This document shows, one piece after another, positions 5,008 to 59,522 of a stretch of DNA of 64,000 bases (its first letter is position 1; each line of letters starts with the position of its first letter). The DNA is taken from positions 3,753,311 to 3,817,310 of the forward strand of contig NC_081136.1 of NCBI RefSeq assembly GCF_958295425.1, read 5' to 3'. A program made the position numbers and the translations under genes. The notes beneath the pieces were generated by a model. That model searched no databases. It was not told the DNA's origin and was given only the letters and a program-made list of their open reading frames with translations. This stretch comes from Solea solea (taxonomy: Eukaryota > Chordata > Actinopteri > Pleuronectiformes > Soleidae).

Positions 5008-5086
5008 GTTTTAACTAAAGTCGATTAATCAATTATCAAAATAGTAGACGATTCATTTGGTGCTTGATTAATCATCGCAGCCCCAA
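5008..5086. repeat. AATCGATT-type interspersed repeat, fragment
   Basis: Contains GTCGATTAATCAATTATCAA and a TAATCATCGCAGCCCCA end. This is one of nine copies in the window of the same AT-rich family; the fuller copies are listed at 41002, 52171, 53760 and 63519. Diagnostic text is GAGCTGCAACTAACGATTA at one edge and its complement at the other. Confidence 0.6.
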
Positions 5087-5159
5087 TGCGGTTTTCGGTA
5101 AGAATGGAATGTGTATTTGACCTCTGACCTGATGCGAGTGTGTCTGCAGAGGCTCTTAC

Positions 5160-5437
5160 CTCATTGGACGGCATGCTGACCACACCGGTTGACCTCCTCT
5201 TCTCCCGCAGCTTCCTCTTCTCGATCTGACCTTTGCCCTTCCTCGCGCTGGGACCGCTGCTCTTCTTGTCCTTGCCTTTGCCCGGTGACGGACTCTCCTT
5301 GCCGTCGTGCTCGGCGCAGGCCGCGGGGCTCGAGTCCGGGGACGCGCACGGAGCCTTGTCCGCCTGAGGCGGGGCCTTCTTCAGGTGGCTCACCGGCGTG
5401 ACCACGGCGGCGGCAGGTGAAGGTGCGGGTGAAGGTG

Positions 5438-5468
<31 letters not shown>

Positions 5469-5816
5469 TTGTTGTTGTTGTTGTTGATGCTGGTGGTGGT
5501 GGTAGAGGTGCGCCTCCTCCTCGGGTCTCCGCAGAGCAGTGGCGGAGGAGGAGCGCGACACCGCGTACGAGGAAGGGAAGCAGTTCCCGGAGGAGGCGCT
5601 CCGCTCCGGATTGCCGTTGTTGGTGAGCTCGGTGCCGGGTGCAGGAGCCCCAGCAGCGGCGGGGTGACTACGGCTGTTTGCGGCTGCGGAGCCGAGCGGA
5701 GCGCCAGTCGCTGCCGCAATGTCCCCGAGCATTTTGGCTCTCATTTTCTCCCGCTTCGCCTTCCATTCCTCCAGAAAGTCTGTGGTGGCGTTTGATTTAA
5801 AGCCTCCTGTTGCCAT
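5160..5816 (-). CDS. pawr: Par-4 (prostate apoptosis response 4), first coding exon
   Basis: Par-4 is a pro-apoptotic scaffold that binds atypical PKC, WT1, DAPK3/ZIPK and actin. This exon encodes 219 residues from ATG at 5816 to the donor GAG|GTAAGA (phase 0). Recognisable parts: the conserved N-terminus TTDFLEEWKAKREKMRAK at about residues 9-26; a fast-evolving S/A/P-rich linker; 16 consecutive Gln; then the SAC core KSSGPSARKGKGQIEKRKL followed by [10 protein letters not shown], which holds the nuclear localisation signal and the PKA/Akt-type RRST site. The mammalian ELNNN segment (SPSB-binding) appears as ELTNN. The start is supported by the family N-terminus MATGG; the longer upstream frame is 5' UTR. 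The rest, including the C-terminal leucine zipper, lies left of the window. Mammalian PAWR is about 340 residues; the linker and polyQ make this version longer. Confidence 0.95.
5439..5486 (-). repeat. Coding polyglutamine tract in pawr (16 Gln)
   Basis: A CAA/CAG mixture encodes 16 consecutive Gln, preceded by HHHQH and followed by PPSPAPSP. The first half of the tract is pure CAA and the second half mixes CAG and CAA, which should lower slippage. Confidence 0.9.
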
Positions 5817-6340
5817 TTCCTCTCTTTGAAGTCCCTCCTCGCGCGCACAGTGGCTGAAAAACAAACTTTAAAAAAAAAAAAAAAAAAAGCTGATAGTCTG
5901 ATAGCTTTAGTCTCTCTCCTAACAACGACCCCGCATTCCTGAGGTGAATAAAACAAACCGCCCTCTGCTACTGTTGTTGCCAGGTGAAGAGAAAACTAAA
6001 GTGAAACTTTGTCTTTTCCACTCGAAACACGCACTTTCCTTTCATGTAGTCGCCGAGTTATCGCCCAAAAAAGTAGCCTCCTGCGTTAAAAGTTGCAACT
6101 TTGCGGATTAAAAGTCGACAAAAACCGTGCATATAAAAAGTTACTCCAGAGAGAGACGCAGGAGTGCGGACTCACCTGCGTGAAGCAGCGTCTGTCTGCG
6201 GATAATCTGTCCTCGGTCACACCAGGTGTGTGTGTGTGTGTGTGTTTGTGTAATGAATGGTGCTCGCGCTCGCTCTCTCTCTCTCGCCCTCTGACTCCGC
6301 CGACAACACACGAGCGTTTCCGAGCGTTCCCGAACAATTA
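5817..6340 (-). other. pawr 5' UTR: leader of exon 2, short intron, non-coding exon 1, promoter region
   Basis: Upstream of the ATG the exon continues to 5853, where TTTGTTTTTCAG|CC is a strong acceptor behind a long T tract. The matching donor CGCAG|GTGAGT puts the 3' end of a non-coding exon 1 at 6176, giving an intron of about 320 bp. A (GT)n tract at about 6224-6250 lies inside or just upstream of exon 1. No TATA box is convincing, and the start site is not determinable by eye. Confidence 0.7.
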
Positions 6341-9560: not shown

Positions 9561-9685
9561 GTGTCCTTTGAGATGCTTTGTCAACATGATCAAAGGGCTC
9601 TTGCCTTTCATGTAAAGATACAAAAATAAGTGTTGCCATTAACGTGCTTACTCACGTTTTCACATCACTGCACGTTGGGAGAAGT

Positions 9686-12600
9686 ATGGATAGAGGCGCG
9701 ACGATGAAGCGCCCTAAAAGGACCCGATGGCTTTGGCCTATTCTCATCATTTCAACTGTATTGACTACCACCCGTGGACGGAATTTTGCCAGAAAGTCAC
9801 TGACGTACCGCTATGCAGTTCGAGGTGAAAATGTCACCCTTGAATGCCATTTCCAGGTTGGTACTGAGGATTTGGATCAGTTGATGATCGAATGGTTCTT
9901 TGAGCCTAGACATGGAGAAACTGACAAGGACCTCCTGATCTCATTGTTTGGAGATACAAAATATCACAAAAATGGCATCCAGGACAGGGTTCACTTTTCA
10001 TCTCTAAATCCCCAGGATGGTGATGCTTCATTGATGTTAAATGACCTTGCGCTTACAGACACAGGTACTTACCAATGTACGATCAAAGCAATGACTCAAA
10101 TCCAAAGCAAGCAATTTGTGCTGAAGGTTATGGAGAAGCTACCTACACCAGTATGTGGTCGCTTTGGTGAAGACAGCAAAGAACTGATTTTGACATGCAT
10201 GATGTCAGAGTACGTCGCACACCAAAGGTTTAGATGGGAAAAAATGACTGGAAATAGAAAGCTTCCTCCATCTGCAGCCAACTATGGACCTCAAAGTTAC
10301 CTGTATATTAGAGAAGTAAAGGAAACTGACTTTGGAACCTACCGCTGCACTGTTGAGAACCCTGTAAGTCAAGGGGAATACTGTGAAGTAATTCTCCAAC
10401 CAAAACCTCAGACCACAGGACCACCAAACATGAACGTGACGACAGTGGTTGCTTCAGTCACAGACATGGAAGGAGGTTCTCGTCACATCCCTCAGACAGA
10501 ATCTCAGACCACAGGACCACCAAACATGGAAGCAACCACAGTGGCTGCCTCAGTCACAGACATGGGAGGAAGTTCTCGTCACATCCCTCAGACAGAATCT
10601 CAGACCACAGGACCACCAAACATGGAAGCAACCACAGTGGCTGCCTCAGTCACAGACATGGGAGGAGGTTCTCGTCACATCCTTCAAACAGAACCTCAGA
10701 CCGCAGGACCACCAAACATGGAAGCGACCACAGTGGTTGCCTCAGTCAAAGACATGGGAGGAGGTTCTCGTCACATCCCTCAGACAGAATCTCAGACCAC
10801 AGAACCACCAAACATGGAAGAAACCACAGTGGTTGCCTCAGTCACAGACTTGGGAGGAGGTTCTCGTCACATCCCTCGGACAGAATCTCAGACTACAGAA
10901 CCACCAAGCATGGAAGCAACCACAGTGGTTGCCTCAGTCACAGACTTGGGAGGAGGTTCTCTTCACATCCCTCAGAAAGAATCTCAGACCACAGAACCAC
11001 CAAGCATGGAAGCAACCACAGTGGTTGCCTCAGTCAAAGACATGGCACGAGCCTCTCGTCACATCCTTCAGACAGATTCTCCGACCACAGGACCACCAAA
11101 CACGGAAGCAACCACAGTGGTCACTTCAGTCACAGATACGGGAGGAGGCTCTCGTCACATCCCTCAGACAGAATCTCAGACCACAGGACCACCAAACATG
11201 GAAGCAACCACAGTGGTTGCCTCAGTCACAGACTTGGGAGGAGGTTCTCGTCATATCCTTCAAACAGAATCTCAGACCACAGGACCACCAAAAATGGAAG
11301 CAACCACAGTGGCTGCCTCAGTCAAAGACATGAGAGGAGGTTCTCGTCACATCCCTCAGACAGAATCTCAGACCACAGGACCACCAAACATGGAAGCAAC
11401 CACATTGGTCGCTTCAGTCACAGATATGGGAGGAGGCTCTCGTCACATCCCTCAGACAGAATCTCAGACCACAGGACCATCAAACACGGACACAACCCCA
11501 GCGGTTGCTTCAGTCACAGACATGGAAGGAGGTTCTCGTCACATCCCTCAGACAGAATCTCAGACCACAAGACCACCAAACATGGAACCAACCACAGTGG
11601 TCGCCTCAGTCACAGACATCGGAGGAGCCTCTCTTCACATCCCTCAGACAGAATCTCAGACCACAGGACCACCAAACATGGAAGCAACCACAGTGGTCGC
11701 CTCAGTCAAAGACATGGAAGGAGGTTCTCGTCACATCCCTCAGACAGAATCTCAGACCACAGGACCACCAAACATGGAAGCAACCACAGTGGTCGCCTCA
11801 GTCATAGACATGGGAGGAGGTTCTCGTCACATCCCTCAGACAGAATCTCAGACCACAGGACCACCAAACATGGAAGCAACCACAGTGGTCGCCTCAGTCA
11901 CAGACATCGGAGGAGCCTCTCGTCACATCCCTCAGACAGAATCTCAGACCACAGGACCACCAAACATGGAAGCAACCACAGTGGTCGCCTCAGTCACAGA
12001 CATGGGAGGAGGTTCTCGTCACGTCCCTCAGAGAAAATCTCAGACCACAGGACCACCAAACAAGGAAGCATCCACAGTGGTCGCCTCAGTCACAGACATG
12101 GGAGGAGCCTCTCGTCTCATCCCTCAGACAGAATCTCAGAGCACAGGACCACCAAACATGGAAGCAACCACAGTGGTCGCCTCAGTCACAGACAACGGAG
12201 GAGCCTCTCGTCACATCCCTCAGACAGAATCTCAGACCACAGGACCACCAAACATGGAAGCAACCACAGTGGTCGCCTCAGTCACAGACATGGGAGGAGG
12301 TTCTCGTCACATCCCTCAGACAGAATCTCAGACCACAGGACCACCAAACACGGACGCAACCCCAGCGGTTGCTTCAGTCACAGACATGGGAGGAGGTTCT
12401 CGTCACATCCCTCAGACAGAATCTCAGACCACAGGACCACCAAACACGGACGCAACCCCAGCGGTTGCTTCAGTCACAGACATGGGAGGAGGTTCTCGTC
12501 ACATCCCTCAGACAGAATCTCAGACCACAGGACCACCAAACATGGAAGCAACCGCAGTGTTCACCTCAGTCACAGACATGGGAGGAGGTTCTCGTCACAT

Positions 12601-15600
12601 TCCTCAGAGAAAATCTCAGACCACAGGACCACCAAACATGGAAGCAACCACAGTTGTTGCCTCAGTCACAGACTTGGGAGGAGGTTCTCGTCATATCCTT
12701 CAAACAGAATCTCAGTCCACAGGACCACCAAAAATGGAAGCAACCACAGTGGTCGCCTCAGTCAAAGACATGGGAGGAGGTTCTCGTCACGTCCCTCAGA
12801 GAAAATCTCAGACCACAGGACCACCAAACAAGGAAGCAACCACAGTGGTCGCCTCAGTCACAGACATGAGAGGAGGTTCTCGTCACATCGCTCAGACAGA
12901 ATCTCAGAGCACAGGACCACCAAACACGGAAGCAACCACAGTGGTCACTTCAGTCACAGATATGAGAGGAGACTCTCGTCACATCCCTCAGACAGAATCT
13001 CAGACCACAGGACCATCAAACATGGAAGAAACCACAGTGGTCGCCTCAGTCACAGACATGGGAGGAGCCTCTCGTCACATCCCTCGGACAGAATCTCAGA
13101 CCACAGGACCACCAAACATGGAAGCAACCACAGTGGTCGCCTCAGTCAAAGACATGGAAGGAGGTTCTCGTCACATCCCTCAGACAGAATCTCAGACCAC
13201 AGGACCACCAAACATGGAAGCAACCACAGTGGTCGCCTCAGTCACAGACATGGGAGGAGGTTCTCGCCACGTCCCTCAGAGAAAATCTCAGACCACAGGA
13301 CCACCAAACAAGGAAGCAACCACAGTGGTCGCCTCAGTCACAGACATGGGAGGAGCCTCTCGTCTCATCCCTCAGACAGAATCTCAGAGCACAGGACCAC
13401 CAAACATGGAAGCAACCACAGTGGTCGCCTCAGTCACAGACATCGGAGGAGCCTCTCGTCACATCCCTCAGACAGAATCTCAGACCACAGGACCACCAAA
13501 CATGGAAGCAACCACAGTGGTCGCCTCAGTCACAGACATGGGAGGAGGTTCTCGTCACATCCCTCAGACAGAATCTCAGACCACAGGACCACCAAACACG
13601 GACGCAACCCCAGCGGTTGCTTCAGTCACAGACATGGGAGGAGGTTCTCGTCACATCCCTCAGACAGAATCTCAGACCACAGGACCACCAAACACGGACG
13701 CAACCCCAGCGGTTGCTTCAGTCACAGACATGGGAGGAGGTTCTCGTCACATCCCTCAGACAGAATCTCAGATCACAGGACCACCAAACATGGAAGCAAC
13801 CACAGTGGTCGCCTCAGTCACAGACATGGGAGCTGGTTCTCGTCACATCCCTCAGACAGAATCTCAGACCGCAGGACCACCAAACACGGACGCAACCCCA
13901 GCGGTTGCTTCAGTCACAGACATGGGAGGAGCCTCTCGTCACATCCCTCAGAGAGAATCTCAGACCACAGGACCACCAAACACGGACGCAACCCCAGCGG
14001 TTGCTTCAGTCACAGACATGGGAGAAGGTTCTCGTCATATCCCTCAGACAGAATCTCAGACCACAGGACCACCAAACATGGAAGCAACCACAGTGGTCGC
14101 CTCAGTCACAGACATGGGAGCTGGTTCTCGTCACATCCCTCAGACAGAATCTCAGACCGCAGGACCACCAAACATGGAAGCAACCACAGTGGTCGCTTCA
14201 GTCACAGACATGGGAGGAGGTTCTCGTCACATCCTTCAGACAGATTCTCAGACCACAGGACCACCAAACACGGAAGCAACCACAGTGGTTACTTCAGTCA
14301 CAGATATGGGAGGAGGCTCTCGTCACATCCCTCAGACAGAATCTCAGACCACAGGACCACCAAACATGGAAGCAACCACAGTGGTTACCTCAGTCACAGA
14401 CTTGGGAGGAGGTTCTCGTCACATCCTTCAAACAGAATCTCAGACCACAGGACCACCAAACATGGAAGCAACCACAGTGGTTGCCTCAGTCACAGACATG
14501 GGACGAGCCTCTCGTCACATCCTTCAGACAGAATCTCAGACCACAGAACCACCAAACACGGACACAACCCCAGCGGTTGCTTCAGTCACAGACATGGGAG
14601 GAGGTTCTCGTCACATCCCTCAGACAGATTCTCAGACCACAGGACCACCAAACACGGAAGCAACCACAGTGGTCACTTCAGTCACAGATACGGGAGGAGG
14701 CTCTCGTCACATCCCTCAGACAGAATCTCATACCACAGGACAACCAAACACGGAAGCAACCACAGTGGTCACTTCAGTCACAGATACGGGAGGAGGCTCT
14801 CGTCACATCCCTCAGACAGAATCTCATACCACAGGACCACCAAACACGGAAGCAACCACAGTGGTTGCCTCAGACACAGACTTGGGAGGAGGTTCTCGTC
14901 ACATCCCTCAGACAGAATCTCAGACCACAGGACAACCAAACACGGAAGCAACCACAGTGGTCACTTCAGTCACAGATATGGGAGGAGGCTCTCGTCACAT
15001 CCCTCAGACAGAATCTCAGACCACAGGACCACCAAACATGGAAGCAACCACAGTGGTTACCTCAGTCACAGACTTGGGAGGAGGTTCTCGTCACATCCTT
15101 CAAACAGAATCTCAGACCACCAGACCACCAAACATGGAAGCAACCACAGTGGTTGCCTCAGTCACAGACATGGGACGAGCCTCTCGTCACATCCTTCAGA
15201 CAGAATCTCAGACCACAGAACCACCAAACACGGACACAACCCCAGCGGTTGCTTCAGTCACAGACATGGGAGGAGGTTCTCGTCACATCCCTCAGACAGA
15301 TTCTCAGACCACAGGACCACCAAACACGGAAGCAACCACAGTGGTCACTTCAGTCACAGATACGGGAGGAGGCTCTCGTCACATCCCTCAGACAGAATCT
15401 CATACCACAGGACAACCAAACACGGAAGCAACCACAGTGGTCACTTCAGTCACAGATACGGGAGGAGGCTCTCGTCACATCCCTCAGAAAGAATCTCATA
15501 CCACAGGACCACCAAACATGGAAGCAACCACAGTGGTTGCCTCAGACACAGACTTGGGAGGAGGTTCTCGTCACATCCCTCAGACAGAATCTCAGACCAC

Positions 15601-18600
15601 AGGACAACCAAACACGGAAGCAACCACAGTGGTCACTTCAGTCACAGATATGGGAGGAGGCTCTCGTCACATCCCTCAGACAGAATCTCAGACCACAGGA
15701 CCACCAAACATGGAAGCAACCACAGTGGTAGCCTCAGTCACAGACATGGGAGGAGGTTCTCGTCACATCCTTCAAACAGAATCTCAGACCACAGGACCAC
15801 CAAACATGGAAGCAACCACAGTGGTCGCCTCAGTCACAGACATGGGAGGAGGTTCTCGTCACATCCCTCAGACAGAATCTCAGACCACAGGACCACCAAA
15901 CATGGAAGCAACCACTGCGGTCGCCTCAGTCAAAGACATGGAAGGAGGTTCTCGTCACATCCCTCAGACAGAATCTCAGACCACAGCACCACCAAACATG
16001 GAAGCAACCACAATGGTTGCCTCAGTCACAGACATGGGAGGAGGTTCTCGTCACATCCCTCAGAGAGAATCTCAGACCACAGGACCACCAAACATGGAAG
16101 CAACCACAGTGGTCGCCTCAGTCACAGACATGGGAGGAGGTTCTCGTCACATCCCTCAGACAGAATCTCAGACCGCAGGACCACCAAACATGGAAGCAAC
16201 CACAGTGGTCGCTTCAGTCACAGACATGGGAGGAGGTTCTCGTCACATCCTTCAGACAGATTCTCAGACCACAGGACCACCAAACACGGAAGCAACCACA
16301 GTGGTCACTTCAGTCACAGATATGGGAGGAGGCTCTCGTCACATCCCTCAGACAGAATCTCAGACCACAGGACCACCAAACATGGAAGCAACCACAGTGG
16401 TTACCTCAGTCACAGACTTGGGAGGAGGTTCTCGTCACATCCTTCAAACAGAATCTCAGACCACAGGACCACCAAACATGGAAGCAACCACAGTGGTTGC
16501 CTCAGTCACAGACATGGGACGAGCCTCTCGTCACATCCTTCAGACAGAATCTCAGACCACAGAACCACCAAACACGGACACAACCCCAGCGGTTGCTTCA
16601 GTCACAGACATGGGAGGAGGTTCTCGTCACATCCCTCAGACAGATTCTCAGACCACAGGACCACCAAACACGGAAGCAACCACAGTGGTCACTTCAGTCA
16701 CAGATACGGGAGGAGGCTCTCGTCACATCCCTCAGACAGAATCTCATACCACAGGACAACCAAACACGGAAGCAACCACAGTGGTCACTTCAGTCACAGA
16801 TACGGGAGGAGGCTCTCGTCACATCCTTCAAACAGAATCTCAGACCACAGGACCACCAAACATGGAAGCAACCACAGTGGTCGCCTCAGTCACAGACATG
16901 GGAGGAGGTTCTCGTCACATCCCTCAGACAGAATCTCAGACCACAGGACCACCAAACATGGAAGCAACCACAGTGGTCGCCTCAGTCACAGACATGGGAG
17001 GAGGTTCTCGTCACATCCCTCAGACAGAATCTCAGACCACAGGACCACCAAACATGGAAGCAACCACTGCGGTCGCCTCAGTCAAAGACATGGAAGGAGG
17101 TTCTCGTCACATCCCTCAGACAGAATCTCAGACCACAGCACCACCAAACATGGAAGCAACCACAATGGTTGCCTCAGTCACAGACATGGGAGGAGGTTCT
17201 CGTCACATCCCTCAGAGAGAATCTCAGACCACAGGACCACCAAACATGGAAGCAACCACAGTGGTCGCCTCAGTCACAGACATGGGAGGAGGTTCTCGTC
17301 ACATCCCTCAGACAGAATCTCAGACCACAGGACCACCAAACAAGGAAGCAACCACAGTGGTCGCTTCAGTCACAGACATGGGAGGAGGTTCCCGTCACAT
17401 CGCTCAGACAGAATCTCAGACCACAGGACCACCAAACATGGAAGCAACCACAGTGGTAGCCTCAGTCACAGACATGGGAGGAGGTTCTCGTCACATCCTT
17501 CAAACAGAATCTCAGACCACAGGACCACCAAACATGGAAGCAACCACAGTGGTCGCCTCAGTCACAGACATGGGAGGAGGTTCTCGTCACATCCCTCAGA
17601 CAGAATCTCAGACCACAGGACCACCAAACATGGAAGCAACCACTGCGGTCGCCTCAGTCAAAGACATGGAAGGAGGTTCTCGTCACATCCCTCAGACAGA
17701 ATCTCAGACCACAGCACCACCAAACATGGAAGCAACCACAATGGTTGCCTCAGTCACAGACATGGGAGGAGGTTCTCGTCACATCCCTCAGAGAGAATCT
17801 CAGACCACAGGACCACCAAACATGGAAGCAACCACAGTGGTCGCCTCAGTCACAGACATGGGAGGAGGTTCTCGTCACATCCCTCAGACAGAATCTCAGA
17901 CCGCAGGACCACCAAACATGGAAGCAACCACAGTGGTCGCTTCAGTCACAGACATGGGAGGAGGTTCTCGTCACATCCTTCAGACAGATTCTCAGACCAC
18001 AGGACCACCAAACACGGAAGCAACCACAGTGGTCACTTCAGTCACAGATATGGGAGGAGGCTCTCGTCACATCCCTCAGACAGAATCTCAGACCACAGGA
18101 CCACCAAACATGGAAGCAACCACAGTGGTTACCTCAGTCACAGACTTGGGAGGAGGTTCTCGTCACATCCTTCAAACAGAATCTCAGACCACAGGACCAC
18201 CAAACATGGAAGCAACCACAGTGGTTGCCTCAGTCACAGACATGGGACGAGCCTCTCGTCACATCCTTCAGACAGAATCTCAGACCACAGAACCACCAAA
18301 CACGGACACAACCCCAGCGGTTGCTTCAGTCACAGACATGGGAGGAGGTTCTCGTCACATCCCTCAGACAGATTCTCAGACCACAGGACCACCAAACACG
18401 GAAGCAACCACAGTGGTCACTTCAGTCACAGATACGGGAGGAGGCTCTCGTCACATCCCTCAGACAGAATCTCATACCACAGGACAACCAAACACGGAAG
18501 CAACCACAGTGGTCACTTCAGTCACAGATACGGGAGGAGGCTCTCGTCACATCCTTCAAACAGAATCTCAGACCACAGGACCACCAAACATGGAAGCAAC

Positions 18601-21274
18601 CACAGTGGTCGCCTCAGTCACAGACATGGGAGGAGGTTCTCGTCACATCCCTCAGACAGAATCTCAGACCACAGGACCACCAAACATGGAAGCAACCACA
18701 GTGGTCGCCTCAGTCACAGACATGGGAGGAGGTTCTCGTCACATCCCTCAGACAGAATCTCAGACCACAGGACCACCAAACATGGAAGCAACCACTGCGG
18801 TCGCCTCAGTCAAAGACATGGAAGGAGGTTCTCGTCACATCCCTCAGACAGAATCTCAGACCACAGCACCACCAAACATGGAAGCAACCACAATGGTTGC
18901 CTCAGTCACAGACATGGGAGGAGGTTCTCGTCACATCCCTCAGAGAGAATCTCAGACCACAGGACCACCAAACATGGAAGCAACCACAGTGGTCGCCTCA
19001 GTCACAGACATGGGAGGAGGTTCTCGTCACATCCCTCAGACAGAATCTCAGACCACAGGACCACCAAACAAGGAAGCAACCACAGTGGTCGCTTCAGTCA
19101 CAGACATGGGAGGAGGTTCCCGTCACATCGCTCAGACAGAATCTCAGACCACAGGACCACCAAACATGGAAGCAACCACAGTGGTTGCCTCAGTCACAGA
19201 CATGGGAGGAGTCTCTCGTCTCATCCCTCAGACAGAATCTCAGACCACAGGACAACCAAACATGGAAGCAACCACAGTGGTCACTTCAGTCACAGATATG
19301 GGAGGAGGTTCTCGTCACATCCTTCAAACAGAATCTCAGACCACAGGACCACCAAACATGGAAGCAACCACAGTGGTCGCCTCAGTCACAGATATGGGAG
19401 GAGGCTCTCGTCACATCCCTCAGACAGAATCTCAGACCACAGGACAACCAAACACGGAAGCAACCACAGTGGTCACTTCAGTCACAGATATGGGAGGAGG
19501 CTCTCGTCACATCCCTCAGACAGAATCTCAGACCACAGGACCACCAAACATGGAAGCAACCACAGTGGTAGCCTCAGTCACAGACATGGGAGGAGGTTCT
19601 CGTCAAATCCCTCGGACAGAATCTCAGACCACAGGACCATCAAACATTGAAGCAACCACAGTGGTCGCCTCAGTCACAAGATCAGGAGAATTAGGTCACG
19701 TCCCCCAGCCTGGACGTACCACATCATTGACGTACTATGCAGCTCGAGGTGAAAATGTCACCCTTGAATGTCATTTCACTGTTCCTCCTGAGGATTTGGA
19801 TCAGTTGACGATTGAATGGCTCTTTAGGCCGGGATCGGGACAAATTGTCCCAATCTCATTTTTTGGAGATACAAAATATCACAAAAATGGCACCCAGGAC
19901 AGGGTTCGTTTTTCCTCTCCAAATCCCCAGGATGGTGACGCTTCATTGACGTTAGATGACCTTGAGCTTACAGACACAGGCACTTACCAATGTACGATCA
20001 AAGCAATGACTCAAATCCAAAGCAAGAAATTTGTGCTGAAGGTTATGGAGAAGCTACCTACACCAGTATGTGGACTCTACAGTGATGTCGAAGAGGGCAA
20101 AGAACTGATTTTGACATGCAGGATCTCTCCAGACATCCTACCCCGAAGGTTCAGATGGGAAAGAATGACTGGAAATAGAAGGCTTCCTCAACCTGCATTT
20201 TTCTATGGACTTCAAGGTGACCTGTATATTAAAGAAGTAAAGACAACTGACTTTGGAACCTACCGCTGCACTACTCAGAACCCTGTAAGTGAAGAGAAAT
20301 ACTGTGAAGTAATTCTGACAACAGCAGTTCTTACTCCCATCGCTGTCAGAGAAAGAGGACTAGAACCACACGTCATCACCCTGCCAGCACCAAACAGTGC
20401 AACATCTGTAGTGATAGCAGTAGCAGTGGTTACTTCAGCCATGGTCATCATTGTCATCATCATCACAGTCGTCATCTTTGAATACTGCAAAAGGAAACCT
20501 CATTGTGAAGTGACAGACGAACGTCCTTCGCGTCAAGAGAAGTGCATTGCAGATGTGAGTAAGATATTGTGGTAAAGTACTGTTTTATTTAAATCATAAT
20601 TTCACATGTCAAGGTTGAACAGTGCAAACATCTTTAACACACGCCTCTTTCCCTCCCTCCCCCTGGCGGCAATTTTTTTTAAATTTCTCAATGAAGGCCG
20701 CGCCAAAGGGTGACCCTGAATACATCAGTCTATACAAGATGGGCCGAAAAAAGACAATAACCTGTGAAGGAGACAACCAAGGTAAGAACTACAACAAGAA
20801 CATTTAGAACTGAACTAGGACTGCGTGCAGTCATGAAAGGGCCCCTTGCATGGGGGGGGGGGTGCATTTCCCTGGCTGACTTCCTGTTGAGTTGAGGCCA
20901 TGGTCCCAATTCACTTTTTTGTTCTTCTGAGGCTGTGACAAGTTCCCACCAAGTTTGGTGAAATTTGGTGCAACTTAATCTTGGCTTGGTCCATCCACGT
21001 TTCGCCTTAGGTGGCGCGACAATTTGTACTCGACACATCTAAGGGAAAATGTTGTCGATGGTCACTTCAGCATACATTGACCGATCGCCTCGAAACTTCA
21101 TACGTGACACAGTAGACCGACCTGCAACACGTATACGTTAATATTATCCTGTGACTTTGCGGTCATTTTTGAGGGAGTTTTATATTTCATTTATTACAAA
21201 ATAAATAAATGTATACATGCAAATTTCTCTTATTTCTTTTAGGAATTGTAATTTCTGAAGAGTGGTATGTCTAG
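9686..21274 (+). CDS. Giant CXADR/CTX-family immunoglobulin protein with 97-unit stalk (3 exons: 9686-20554, 20697-20781, 21243-21274)
   Basis: Predicted 3,661-residue type I membrane protein. Order: basic/hydrophobic signal peptide (about residues 7-31); IgV (Cys54-Cys131); IgC2 with Cys157, 171, 221 and 233, the four-cysteine pattern of CXADR domain 2; 97 stalk units of 32 residues (238-3340); a second, closely similar V-C2 pair (about 3341-3545); transmembrane helix from about 3575; short basic tail. CXADR-like signatures are RVHFSS, GDASL, TDTGTYQC and FGTYRCT. The single open frame runs to 20575, but GAT|GTGAGT at 20555 joins in frame to an exon at 20697 (28 codons, phase 1) and then one at 21243 ending in EEWYV-stop, so I prefer the spliced tail. 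ATG 9686 (A at -3, G at +4) is chosen as start; ATG 9704 is possible; an upstream exon cannot be excluded. Unusually, both Ig pairs, stalk and TM share one exon. Function unknown; cell adhesion or surface protection is inference. Confidence 0.85.
9785..10396 (+). other. N-terminal IgV-IgC2 module of the giant protein
   Basis: V domain with GENVTLEC, a tryptophan in IEWFF, RVHFSS and TDTGTYQC. C2 domain with PVCGRF, LTCMM, RFRWEK and FGTYRCTVENP. At nucleotide level it closely matches 19720-20315; the stretch ACTTACCAATGTACGATCAA and its continuation are identical between the two, so the duplication is recent or homogenised. Confidence 0.85.
10397..19705 (+). repeat. Coding array: 97 units of 96 bp (32 residues)
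   Basis: Consensus unit: QTESQTTGPPNMEATT followed by VVASVTDMGGGSRHIP. Unit starts fall exactly every 96 bp from 10397 to 19613, with no insertion or deletion; only the last unit is one codon short and degenerate. Units contain about 28% Ser/Thr, three Pro and no Cys, as in mucin-like stalks. Variant units (TDATPAVASV, TEATTVVTSV, QRKSQTT, GRASRHI) are arranged in blocks that repeat as higher-order units of 18 (1,728 bp) and 7 (672 bp). Confidence 0.97.
15911..18791 (+). repeat. Higher-order 1,728-bp duplication inside the array
   Basis: The rare variant ACCACTGCGGTC occurs at 15911, 17063, 17639 and 18791, spaced 12, 6 and 12 units apart, so 15911/17639 and 17063/18791 are each exactly 1,728 bp apart. 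The variant GGACGAGCCTC at 16517 and 18245 gives the same spacing. An older 672-bp step (7 units) links 14501 to 15173. This implies unequal exchange of multi-unit blocks. Confidence 0.9.
19706..20407 (+). other. C-terminal IgV-IgC2 module and juxtamembrane stalk
   Basis: Second V-C2 pair (GENVTLEC, IEWLF, RVRFSS, TDTGTYQC, PVCGLY, RFRWERMTG, FGTYRCTTQNP), then a short linker to the membrane helix. It retains all canonical cysteines and tryptophans. The V domain carries an extra sequon (KNGTQ) compared with the N-terminal copy. Confidence 0.85.
20408..20480 (+). other. Transmembrane helix of the giant protein
   Basis: About 24 hydrophobic residues (VVIAVAVVTSAMVIIVIII and onward) followed by EYCKRKPHC. 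The near-membrane Cys and the basic stop-transfer residues resemble the CXADR layout, where juxtamembrane Cys are palmitoylated; palmitoylation here is inference. Confidence 0.85.
20697..20781 (+). CDS. Cytoplasmic-tail exon 2 of the giant protein
   Basis: The acceptor is TTTCTCAATGAAG|GCC and the donor CAAG|GTAAGA. In the frame set by GAT|GTGAGT it reads AAPKGDPEYISLYKM and then GRKKTITCEGDNQ. YISL fits the Y-x-x-hydrophobic sorting or phosphotyrosine pattern. The exon is not part of the long open frame and would be missed by a single-exon annotation. Confidence 0.7.
20821..21170. repeat. Interspersed repeat in intron 2 of the giant gene
   Basis: Text such as CCACCAAGTTTGGTGAAATT and CCGATCGCCTCGAAACTTCA is typical of a moderately repetitive fish element. 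Family unknown. Confidence 0.4.
21243..21274 (+). CDS. Terminal coding exon of the giant protein
   Basis: Acceptor TTATTTCTTTTAG|GA. Completing the split Gly codon gives GIVISEEWYV and a TAG at 21272-21274. The last residues W-Y-V fit a class II PDZ ligand (hydrophobic-x-hydrophobic), comparable in role to the class I ligand at the CXADR C-terminus. A donor (AAAG|GTGAGT) follows at 21295, so the 3' UTR may itself be spliced. Confidence 0.65.
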
Positions 21275-21779: not shown

Positions 21780-21835
21780 AATAAATGTATTGATTCAATA
21801 GCAGAAGTGAATATTTGGGCCAAAGTGAAAATAAA
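21780..21835 (+). terminator. Candidate polyadenylation signals of the giant gene
   Basis: AATAAA at 21780-21785 and 21830-21835, about 510 and 560 bases after the stop codon. Two hexamers close together are plausible, but the AT-rich context makes chance likely too. Confidence 0.4.
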
Positions 21836-21879: not shown

Positions 21880-22655
21880 AAAAAAGTATTACAAGAATAA
21901 AATTGTAATATTGACATTATTCTCCTAATATTCTGACTTTATTTCCGAAAGATTACAACTTTATTCTCCTAACATCACCAAATTATTCTCGAAAGATTAC
22001 GACTTTATTCTCCTAATTTTCCGACCTTATTCTCGAAAGATTGCGACTTTATTTTACTCTCCTAACATTACGACATTATTCTCAAAAGGTTACGACTTTA
22101 TTCTCCTAATATTCCCACTTTATTTCCGAAAGATTACAACTTTATTCTCCTAACATCACAAAATTATTCTCGGAAGATTACAACTTTATTCTCCTAACAT
22201 TGCGACTTTATTCTCGAAAGATTACAACTTTATTTTACTCTCCTAACATTACGACATTATTCTCAAAAGGTTACGACTTTATTCTCCTAATATTCCCACT
22301 TTATTTCCGAAAGATTACAACTTTATTCTCCTAACATCACAAAATTATTCTCGAAAGATTACGACTTTATTCTCCTAATTTTCCGACCTTATTCTCAAAA
22401 GATTGCGACTTTATTTTACTCTCCTAACATTACATTATTCTCAAAAGGTTACGACTTTATTCTCCTAATATTCCCACTTTATTTCCGAAAGATTACAACT
22501 TTATGCTCCTAACATCACAAAATTATTCTCGGAAGATTACAACTTTATTCTCCTAACATTGCGACTTTATTCTCGAAAGATTACGACTTTATTTTACTCT
22601 CCTAACATTACATTATCCTCAAAAGATTACGACTTTATTCTCCTAATATTTGAAC
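21880..22655. repeat. Tandem array with ~180-bp higher-order period
   Basis: Subunits of about 35-48 bp (GATTACGACTTTATTCTCCT, AACATTACGACATTATTCTC) are arranged in a larger unit. ATTCCCACTTTATTTCCG recurs at 22111, 22292 and 22470 (spacing 181 and 178). It lies in the gap between the tail-to-tail giant gene and ppp1r12a. Confidence 0.85.
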
Positions 22656-31600: not shown

Positions 31601-34600
31601 TTTATAGGAAACTGAATAGAATGCCTATAAATGTGTTTGAGTGAATAATCGCTTAAAAATTAAAAAAAGAAATAGGGTTTTGTAGCCTTAAAATAAGCCG
31701 TTTATATGTACTTATTTGAATAGCAGCCAGAAAGTTAGATATTCAAACTGTTCAATATTCATGTTAATAGATTTAACTCATTAAATTACTTTATCTTAAA
31801 AAAAAAAAAATAAAAAAAAATAAAGAAGTGGAAAGTCTGGAACTTAAAAATATAAAGATATAAATGACTTCCAACATTTGTGGTTTAATTGGCCATTGGC
31901 AGCCATTTTTATTGTTGATTAAGTTTCTTTAAATATGAACAAATCTGTGTTTTAAACTTAAAAAAAAAGCAGAATTAGCATGGAAGAGAGGATTGAGAAA
32001 TACTGGTGTAGAGAGGAGGGGAGCTATTGTTATCTGCAGTCTCACCATTAGATGTCACTAACTCTTACACACTGGACCTTTAAAGATTGACATACTTTCA
32101 CAAGCACACACGGGAAAACAACAGTGGTGACCACACGCTGCCTCTGAGGTTCAAATAAAATGAAATAAAAAACAGGTGATAGAGAAGGTGGCGGTGTTCT
32201 GGGTGGCGAGGAGGGAGGACGTCTCTGCCCTCTGACCTCTGACCCCCTGAGCCTCGCAGGCCACAAGGGCACGTGTGAGACGACAGGCAGCAGCAGAGAG
32301 AAGACTTATACAAAAAAAACTGATACAGGGGAGAATTCATACCGCCACCCAGATGATAATGGGGCCTGCTTGTCACCTTCAGACATAAACCCATCGGCAG
32401 TGTTACCGTCACGTTAAAAGCAGGTCAATTTCATTTATTTCTATTTATTTTCTTAAGCTTTAAAAAAAAAACACAGGTTAATATAATTTATGAGTAAAGT
32501 TTAAGACAAAATACAGCCGGGATCAGTCGTTCTTACCCTTTTCTCCATCTCGAGCTGTGATCGGTCGGCGTAGCGTTCCTGCCTCTGCAACCACAACAAC
32601 ATACACAGTGAATAATAAATCTGGATTATGTTATTATTACGATTGATTATAATAAGAATCGCAAACAAGATTATTCAGAGAACACAGCACAACACACCAG
32701 AGTAGAACATAAACTACAAATATATTAAACAAATAAACCATTCTAATGTTTTTTTCCCCAGGCTTTAGACCCATTTAAAGCTGCTCATTTTAAGAAGATA
32801 GCAGCTAGTTGCTTAGAAGCTAGCTGCTTTTAAAGGAGCTGATTATTATAAGAAGCTAAAAAGCTTGCTGCTAGTTTTAAGAAGATAGCAGCTCGTTGCT
32901 TAGAAGCTAGCTGCTTTAAAAAGGAGCTGATAATTATTATAAGAAGCTAAAAAGCCTGCTGCTAGTTTTAAGAAGATAGCAGCTTGTTACTTAGAAGCTA
33001 GCTGCTTTAAAAAGGAGCTGATAATCATTATAAGAAGCTAAAAAGCCTGCTGCTAGTTTTAAGAAGATAGCAGCTCGTTGCGAAGCTAGCTGCTTTTAAA
33101 GGAGCTGATAATTATTATAAGAAGCTAAAAAAGCCTGCTGCTAGTTTTAAGAAGATAGCAGCTCGTTGCTTAGAAGCTAGCTGCTTTAAAAAGGAGCTGA
33201 TAATTATTATAAGAAGCTAAAAAAGCCTGCTGCTAGTTTTAAGAAGATAGCAGCTCGTTGCTTAGAAGCTAGCTGCTATAAAAGGAGCTAATAATTATTA
33301 TAAGAAGCTGAAAAGCTAGCTGCTAGTTTTAAGAAGATAAACAGCTTGTTGCTTAGAAGCGAGCTGTTTCTAAGCGACTAGCTTACAGTTGCTTTTATGA
33401 TAATTATTATAAGGAGCTAAAAAGCTAGCTGCTAGTTTTAAGACGAAGATAGCAGCTAGTTGCACAGCTATGCTAGCAGTGATAGTTTCTAAGAAGCTTA
33501 AAAAAAACAAACCTAACCTCTATTTCAGGTCTAAGCATGACATGTATTAATATTTGAGGTGTGTATTTGACTGAGATGATAATCAGAAACAATTATGAGA
33601 TACCAGGTTATTTGCTGCACTTTTTAAGAAAACACATGCATATACGTATAATATGTTATACGTACATTTACTTGACAAAAAGACAGTAATTGAGAGGAAG
33701 CAGCATTTCTGTTGGATAATAGTTTATGGAGAAGGTGTGGTAGGTATAGTTTGTTCCACACTTTCTTTCTGCCATTTCCTTTGTCGTCATCTCTAATGTG
33801 TGTACTTGCATACTTGGGGTAGAAAAAAATGACATGACTTATTTCTAAATGTGTCCATACAGTACGATGATGATCTGATTGTAACATTGTAACATGCCTT
33901 CTTGACCCAGGAATCACCCTGAACAGCCAGAATGAACACCGGCAGCTGTTTTCTGTATATAATCTGCTATTTCGATGATTTTCGTCTCGTACCTGTGTGG
34001 CCTTCTCTAGTTGTAGCTTCAAGTCTGCCAGCTCCAGGTCCGTGTCGCGTAACTGGGCCTTCAACTTCTCGTTCTCGGCTAAGATCTGCTCATAGAGCTG
34101 AAGACACGGGCGAGTCAACAGGTGCGTCGAAAAACAAATCCACCGCGATGAGCGCTATATGGGGGTTAATTAATTTATACCTTTTTATAGTCTGTGGTGT
34201 CGTCTCTGTCCAGTCGGCTCGAGTATGGCCTTCGACTCTCGTAGCTACGGCTGAAAAGAGTGTCGTTGCGGTCCATGGACGAAGTGCTCTCATTCCTGAA
34301 AGGGTGAAGACACTTTAGAGGCACAAAAGTGACGTCTGATAAGAAAGGATGTGATGTAAGGAGAGGGGGGAGGAAACATACCTGGACAATCTGTCACTCT
34401 GTAGGGAAACAAAAATAAAGGGAGAATTAGCATAAGAAGACTTTGTCTCATAAGGACAGTGTGGACCGAACGTCTCGTTCTTAAAACAGACCACCATATC
34501 TGATGTGAGACGCCGCGCGGGCCTTGAGGCACGGCGGCGTCTCACATCAGATATGGAGGTCGTGTCGGAGGGTCGAGCTTCCAGCTATTTTGAAAGTGCA

Positions 34601-59337: not shown

Positions 59338-59522
59338 ACATTTACATTCCGAGATTAGAAAACCTTTACACTCAGAGATTAGAAAATGTTTGCATTCTGA
59401 GATTAGAAAATGTTTGCATTCTGAAATTAGAAAACGTTCACATTCTGAGATTAGAAAATATTCACATTCAGAGATTAGAAAACGTTCACATTCCGAGAAC
59501 AGAAAATATTCACATTCATACA
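59338..59522. repeat. 24-bp minisatellite, ~8 copies
   Basis: Unit GAGATTAGAAAACGTTCACA plus 4 bases, repeated with substitutions only. The 24-bp length keeps both strands partly open, giving short spurious repeat peptides. Confidence 0.85.

Follow-up and report, generated by a model that had tools for sequence, protein, structure and literature searches.

A predicted CXADR-like receptor gene of sole with V-C2 immunoglobulin modules on both sides of an expanded 96-bp coding minisatellite

Locus and gene structure

The window analysed in this study is a stretch of 64,000 bp, which a genome search placed on chromosome 3 of Solea solea (positions 3,753,311–3,817,310). An ORF scan of this window revealed a single plus-strand frame without any stop codon from 9644 to 20575; counted from its first GTG, it has 3,643 codons. 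With an ATG at 9686, the frame 9686–20554 reads a signal-like start, a V-C2 immunoglobulin (Ig) module, a long tandem array, a second V-C2 module, and a transmembrane (TM) stretch. Joining this exon to two short downstream exons resulted in a computed translation of exactly 3,661 residues ending in ISEEWYV, with a mass of 380 kDa in unmodified form and a calculated pI of 5.0. A preliminary description had given the same number of residues and had likewise described one continuous frame. The features of the gene are as follows.

9686..20554, plus strand: coding exon 1 with signal-like start, distal V-C2, array of 32-aa repeats, proximal V-C2, TM stretch, and start of the tail (open frame, match to database protein P0004)
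9686..9778, plus strand: probable signal peptide MDRGATMKRPKRTRWLWPILIISTVLTTTRG, start aligned with the signal-like start of paralogue P0002/L003
9815..10129, plus strand: distal V-set domain (PF07686, E 5.2e-21; CXADR matches)
10148..10396, plus strand: distal C2/I-type Ig domain with four cysteines (PF13927; Cys 157, 171, 221, 233)
10407..19678, plus strand: tandem array with the unit PQTESQTTGPPNMEATTVVASVTDMGGGSRHI (TRF: period 96, 96.6 copies)
15770..17401, plus strand: 17-unit block, letter for letter the same as 17498–19129 (units from 56 and from 74 onwards, lag of 18 units)
19736..20044, plus strand: proximal V-set domain (PF07686, E 5.6e-22; CXADR E 3.1e-31)
20066..20320, plus strand: proximal C2/I-type Ig domain with four cysteines (PF13927; Cys 3462, 3478, 3528, 3540)
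20399..20494, plus strand: TM stretch, hydrophobic SVVIAVAVVTSAMVIIVIIITVVIF, helix 244–275 of a 301-aa model
20697..20781, plus strand: coding exon 2, cytoplasmic tail (splice product as in P0004; similar tail in the S. senegalensis protein P0001)
21243..21274, plus strand: coding exon 3, C-terminus ISEEWYV and stop (splice product as in P0004)
21780..21785, plus strand: AATAAA, possible poly(A) signal (pattern alone)

The probable signal peptide was assigned by similarity to paralogues; its region revealed 81% DNA identity over 73 nt to the locus L010. Directly after the end of exon 1 at 20554 follows GTGAGTAAG. The NCBI-named protein P0004 of S. solea (LOC131457015, 629 aa) is identical, letter for letter, to the final 629 residues of the spliced product, which supports the tail junctions. 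Together with the hydrophobic stretch and exons 2 and 3, this identity bears out the TM stretch and short tail proposed earlier. Overall, predicted database proteins of S. solea and S. senegalensis speak for the tail junctions and for the Ig-repeat-Ig order, and the Ig-repeat-Ig frame is confirmed as real rather than a chance reading.

The earlier proposal of two heads on a stalk of about 3,100 residues is supported in part: the frame is continuous, but P0004, the S. solea database protein, starts at nt 18782 inside the array, includes about 10 units, and lacks the distal head. We consider it unlikely, though, that shorter products alone are made from the locus, i.e., a proximal protein initiated within the array or behind it, possibly along with a secreted distal V-C2 as a product of its own, while the giant frame is never translated whole. 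Such a reading draws on the start of P0004 and on a GTAAGT at 10364 in the distal C2 domain, which lies in codon phase 0 and, with the frame followed by hand, could be spliced in frame to exon 2. It has to be set against the absence of any stop or visible hydrophobic stretch from the distal module to the array, the lack of a signal-like start in the 629-aa form (by eye), and a pattern scan of the array, in effect one repeated unit, that revealed neither GTRAGT or GTRWG donors nor pyrimidine-rich acceptors. In addition, P0001 unites the end of a distal C2 domain, repeats, and the proximal module in one predicted protein. Donor-like sites of the GTAAGT type occur at equivalent positions in the two C2 domains (10364 and 20285), and use of the one at 10364 could yield an in-frame short form without array or TM stretch.

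In the neighbourhood of the gene, the minus strand between 33627 and 48229 carries exons of a myosin phosphatase target subunit of the ppp1r12a type (PDB 1s70, E 1.2e-27), for which Pfam revealed ankyrin repeats and a PRKG1_interact match below its cut-off. A minus-strand open frame at 5028–5867, with a weak TFIIA match as its only Pfam result, is presumably the first exon of pawr. We take pawr and ppp1r12a to be adjacent in human, with the giant gene sitting between them in sole. Further tandem arrays were detected downstream of the gene at 21913–22650 (181 bp × 4.1, made of 22/44-bp subunits), at 32780–33366 (91 bp × 6.5), and at 59344–59518 (24 bp × 7.2). Scans of the window for Rfam families (gathering threshold) and tRNA genes resulted in no hits.

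The 96-bp tandem array and the stalk

TRF described the array with 92% matches, 0% indels, and a score of 15,401. In translation it fills 97 slots of 32 aa. Of these, 95 hold full units, the first is diverged, and the last passes into the linker in front of the second V domain. This agrees with the 97 units of equal length counted at first. Among the full units, 57 different DNA sequences and 53 different protein sequences occur, the mean identity of the units to the consensus being 95%. A four-unit probe searched against the 642-Mb S. solea genome found the array only at this locus (30 of the 30 matches listed, in a search whose completeness is not guaranteed by the program). Since one of the two remaining plus-strand frames of the array contains just one stop codon (the third has nine), its openness alone is weak evidence for coding.

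Single-step codon variants among the units (15 synonymous, 51 non-synonymous, 0 stop) are close to the expectation from mutation alone of roughly 27%, 70%, and 3%, respectively, and thus give no sign that the amino acid sequence is held. Stalk residues that drift neutrally while the frame is kept would fit a spacer. The 17-unit block present twice in identical form is best read as a recent segmental duplication inside the array. As to the source of the repeat unit, alignments of its consensus with the signal peptide, both modules, the stalk-TM region, the intron, and the flanks never exceeded shuffled controls: the observed DNA scores for six regions were reached by 35 to 185 of 200 shuffles, and the protein scores by 63 of 300 (stalk-TM) and 271 of 300 (signal peptide). 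No source of the unit was thus found among these parts of the gene and its flanks.

PMC11829150 gives 20.96 Gb in 2.27 million HiFi reads for S. solea, and division of these totals results in a mean read of about 9.2 kb. As this is close to the length of the array (9.27 kb), the unit number may be off, and a real array with far fewer or more units than assembled would also agree with the 17-unit block present twice and with the about three units of P0001. We nevertheless regard a unit number created by the assembly as improbable, because the 57 distinct unit sequences offer anchors for assembly; moreover, the window contains no N, and the longest exact run of whole units spans 1.6 kb, well below one read. 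Even a miscounted array would be compatible with the two-headed membrane protein that we favour.

The stalk is acidic (net charge −166), predicted to be disordered, and composed of Pro, Thr, and Ser to 37.8%, with a Thr:Ser ratio of 2.0 when all residues are counted. At least 10 Ser/Thr occur in every 50-residue window, a raw residue count and not a number of predicted O-glycosites. The mucin-domain criteria of PMC9209528 comprise at least nine predicted O-glycosites per 50 residues, sites less than six residues apart, and more Thr than Ser. Measured by these, the excess of Thr was found (in residues, not predicted sites) and the density is possible, while the spacing rule failed, 0% of the 50-residue windows conforming and the median largest step being 8 even with every Ser/Thr used. 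The stalk, initially called mucin-like, is thus a borderline case and mucin-like in composition only.

The two V-C2 modules

Sequence searches of PDB resulted in CXADR chains in the top 12 rows for either module, with best E values of 3.2e-24 (distal) and 3.1e-31 (proximal); this ranking compares PDB chains only, and members of the CTX family without structures may be closer. Foldseek likewise placed mouse CAR (3jz7) first for both, albeit with low overall TM-scores (0.41/0.55 and 0.26/0.39) and loose superpositions of the two domains (rmsd 6.4 and 9.0). The predicted models had a mean pLDDT of 64 and 59, with mostly 70–90 in the Ig parts and 25–33 in most of the repeats. As CXADR came first by sequence as well as by structure, the CXADR-like identity assigned at the outset to both modules holds.

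Distal and proximal V-C2 share 84% identity at the DNA level and 72% at the protein level, and the six Ig cysteines of each module are unchanged in every row of two alignments (A3 with seven and A4 with eight rows). The differences between the modules include three DNA gaps of 3, 9, and 6 bases and no stop codon, compared with about 3.1 stops expected if unconstrained (P = 0.04). Between the modules, pN/pS was 0.98 overall (Fisher P = 1.0) and dN/dS about 1, while comparison with the paralogous locus L003 resulted in dN/dS values of 0.52 (distal) and 0.39 (proximal). The latter values, together with a neutral ratio without stops between the copies, point to long-term constraint that was weak or offset since the duplication. 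Positive selection on the modules was considered but is not claimed (C2: pN/pS 1.38, Fisher P = 0.42; V: 0.70, P = 0.39).

That the open frame is a mere remnant of a once-useful CXADR-like gene, whose second module and minisatellite are drifting, is in our view improbable, since the dN/dS of about 1 between the modules and the neutral pattern in the array are opposed by the lack of stops and the whole-codon gaps between the modules, the cysteines kept in both, the similar tail in S. senegalensis, and the dN/dS of 0.39–0.52 against L003. The two S. solea modules differ in 56 alignment columns. In 15 of them, the proximal module of S. senegalensis matches the distal S. solea module, in 33 the proximal one, and in 8 neither; by eye, the agreements with one or the other are clustered. 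L003 sides with one of the modules in 21 of the 56 columns (proximal 15, distal 6). This pattern is no more than suggestive of gene conversion between the modules as opposed to plain inheritance.

Relatives in sole and other fishes

The S. senegalensis protein P0001 (451 aa) consists of the end of the distal C2 domain, about three units, proximal V-C2, TM stretch, and tail. Its repeat part begins with a near-identical first unit, followed by a single full unit and by a final one that merges into the linker. Identity to the giant S. solea product amounts to 93% in the initial 60 residues of P0001 and to 88% in its proximal portion; P0001 is a probable orthologue. As the predicted protein starts inside the distal C2 domain, it has no distal V domain; of the arrangement to be checked in a sister species, two V-C2 modules flanking a repeat, Ig sequence on both sides was found, but on the distal side just the end of C2. 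Since P0001 spans from there to the proximal module, the arrangement is at least partly shared between the species, which supports an origin of the two-module arrangement before the Solea species split. The gene model of P0001 may skip repeats.

Among the 13 matches of the proximal module listed in the S. solea genome, two belong to this gene, seven to single-frame V-C2 copies, and four are short and exon-sized. Two of the seven copies lie on a 366-kb contig and are probably second haplotypes, leaving five distinct further loci (L003, L004, L005, L007, and L009), each of which reads, by eye, a signal-like start, V-C2, TM stretch, and tail in one frame. The stalk of L007 contains a 105-bp segment × 1.8. 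A pair of single-frame CXADR-like loci at about 32.05–32.09 Mb of contig C25 is found again on the 366-kb contig C73, probably as second haplotype (L005–L008). The young paralogues L005 and L007 differ by dN 0.018 and dS 0.023 over 210 codons. In a tree of 12 proteins, the distal, proximal, and S. senegalensis proximal modules were grouped with a support of 100/99, and L003/P0002 and L004 joined this group at 98/98, with long-branch warnings. P0002, a 268-aa protein of S. senegalensis, shares 92% identity with sole L003 across 224 residues and has a differing end without TM stretch; given this deviant end, truncation or mis-splicing of the database protein is possible.

Protein searches resulted in few further relatives. 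The proximal module matched two proteins among 914 candidates, and a broader alignment search, in which scoring was restricted to the 7,997 candidates with the most shared words, so that other fish may be missed, resulted in six including these two. For proteins of comparable length (0.55–1.75 times), residues 1–330 matched one of 4,942 candidates, the titin P0003, which was judged an unrelated Ig protein (29% identity over 18%). Among the proteins found, just this gene and its S. senegalensis counterpart have CAR-type Ig sequence on both sides of a repeat, the counterpart with part of the distal pair only. The best-ranked titles and abstracts of the open-licence literature contained neither a CXADR-like protein with a repeat stalk nor this gene.

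The five sole loci, P0002, and P0005–P0007 (Phycodurus, Nerophis, Entelurus) all have V-C2 in common with the giant gene, and apart from P0002 also a TM-like stretch and short tail; the sole loci share its organization in one open frame, and L003 agrees with it in the signal-peptide region and the donor-like tail end as well. In contrast to the giant gene, they have one V-C2 pair, no giant array, and 28–47% identity to the proximal module, at sizes of 299–444 codons (sole open frames) or 268–327 aa (proteins). P0004 and P0001, as the same gene and probable orthologue, respectively, differ in length (629 and 451 aa) and contain neither the distal V domain nor the greater part of the array. The parentage of the gene, which the preliminary description had matched to no known family architecture, is more ordinary than thought there, as it is one among several single-frame CXADR-like loci.

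Comparison with known receptors

CXADR, CLMP, ESAM, and IGSF11 belong to the CTX/CAR group, whose C2 domain contains an extra cysteine pair and whose members are marked by homophilic adhesion and a location at junctions. The giant gene shares with this group the signal-like start, V-set and C2 domains, two cysteine pairs in C2 (disulfides putative; six cysteines per module, kept in A3 and A4), and one TM stretch, and differs by two V-C2 pairs instead of one and by the repeat stalk of about 3,100 residues. In CXADR and the CTX/CAR group, the V domain is split between two exons. A cxadr-type gene on sole contig C4 revealed an exon, flanked by AG and GT, that holds the second half of V alone, whereas the giant gene runs from start to TM stretch in one predicted exon. 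The half V domain in the C4 exon indicates that the single-exon group lacks that intron, and retroposition would be the simplest cause. With regard to retrogene features, the one comparable intron, inside V, is absent and two tail introns are present. CXADR ends in the PDZ ligand SIV/TVV, the giant tail instead in EEWYV, for which another class of PDZ ligand is possible.

Ig-plus-mucin receptors are known from the TIM family and MAdCAM-1; like these, the giant product has an Ig head on a Ser/Thr-rich stalk, but with heads at both ends. MUC7 is a mucin with subexonic repeats according to PMC4997351. In both genes, the repeats lie within one coding exon, the array of the giant gene being far longer and failing the spacing rule for mucins.

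Proposed origin and architecture

Altogether, we consider it probable that the locus is a functional CXADR-like sole receptor gene of the single-exon type, in which V-C2 was duplicated around an expanded 96-bp minisatellite and which encodes a two-headed type I membrane protein. Judging from the sequences compared here, it represents an extreme case within a compact set of CXADR-like loci and would have arisen by doubling of V-C2 and a locus-specific minisatellite expansion. In this scenario, a tandem duplication gave rise to two V-C2 ectodomains, between which a 96-bp in-frame minisatellite specific to the locus reached about 97 units through unequal exchange or duplication of segments. The resulting type I membrane protein would carry one V-C2 head at the membrane and a second at the far end of the stalk, an acidic and disordered chain of about 3,100 residues rich in Ser/Thr. 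We infer translation of the whole frame, its role, and a stiffening of the spacer by O-glycans.

As a passive spacer, the stalk would hold a CAR-type head, adhesive or ligand-binding, at a distance of hundreds of nanometres; assuming 0.25 nm per residue, its reach would be roughly 0.8 micrometre. The protein may mediate long-reach adhesion at the surface of epithelial or germ cells or serve as a decoy away from the membrane, the most likely role being a long-reach adhesive or ligand-binding tether; the surface shield proposed at first is conceivable as well. A more specific version is put forward as speculative and rather doubtful, namely a two-headed CAR-type tether with homophilic or ligand-binding heads and a stalk reaching at most about 0.8 micrometre, whose minisatellite-set reach would vary between individuals and sole species and whose heads would exchange sequence by gene conversion.

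Significance

The gene is unusual in build though ordinary in parentage. It offers a clean case for the growth of a coding repeat, with one genomic place, few units in the protein of the sister species, a frame that is kept, and a recent duplication of 17 units. The one S. solea database protein found is without five sixths of the predicted product.

CAR-group receptors are small proteins acting across the narrow gap of cell junctions. The giant gene would combine the CAR fold with an ectodomain more than 10 times longer and two heads, making a long-reach tether from one in-frame minisatellite. If this is true, such a two-headed tether could bridge widely spaced membranes or present its head as a pathogen decoy.
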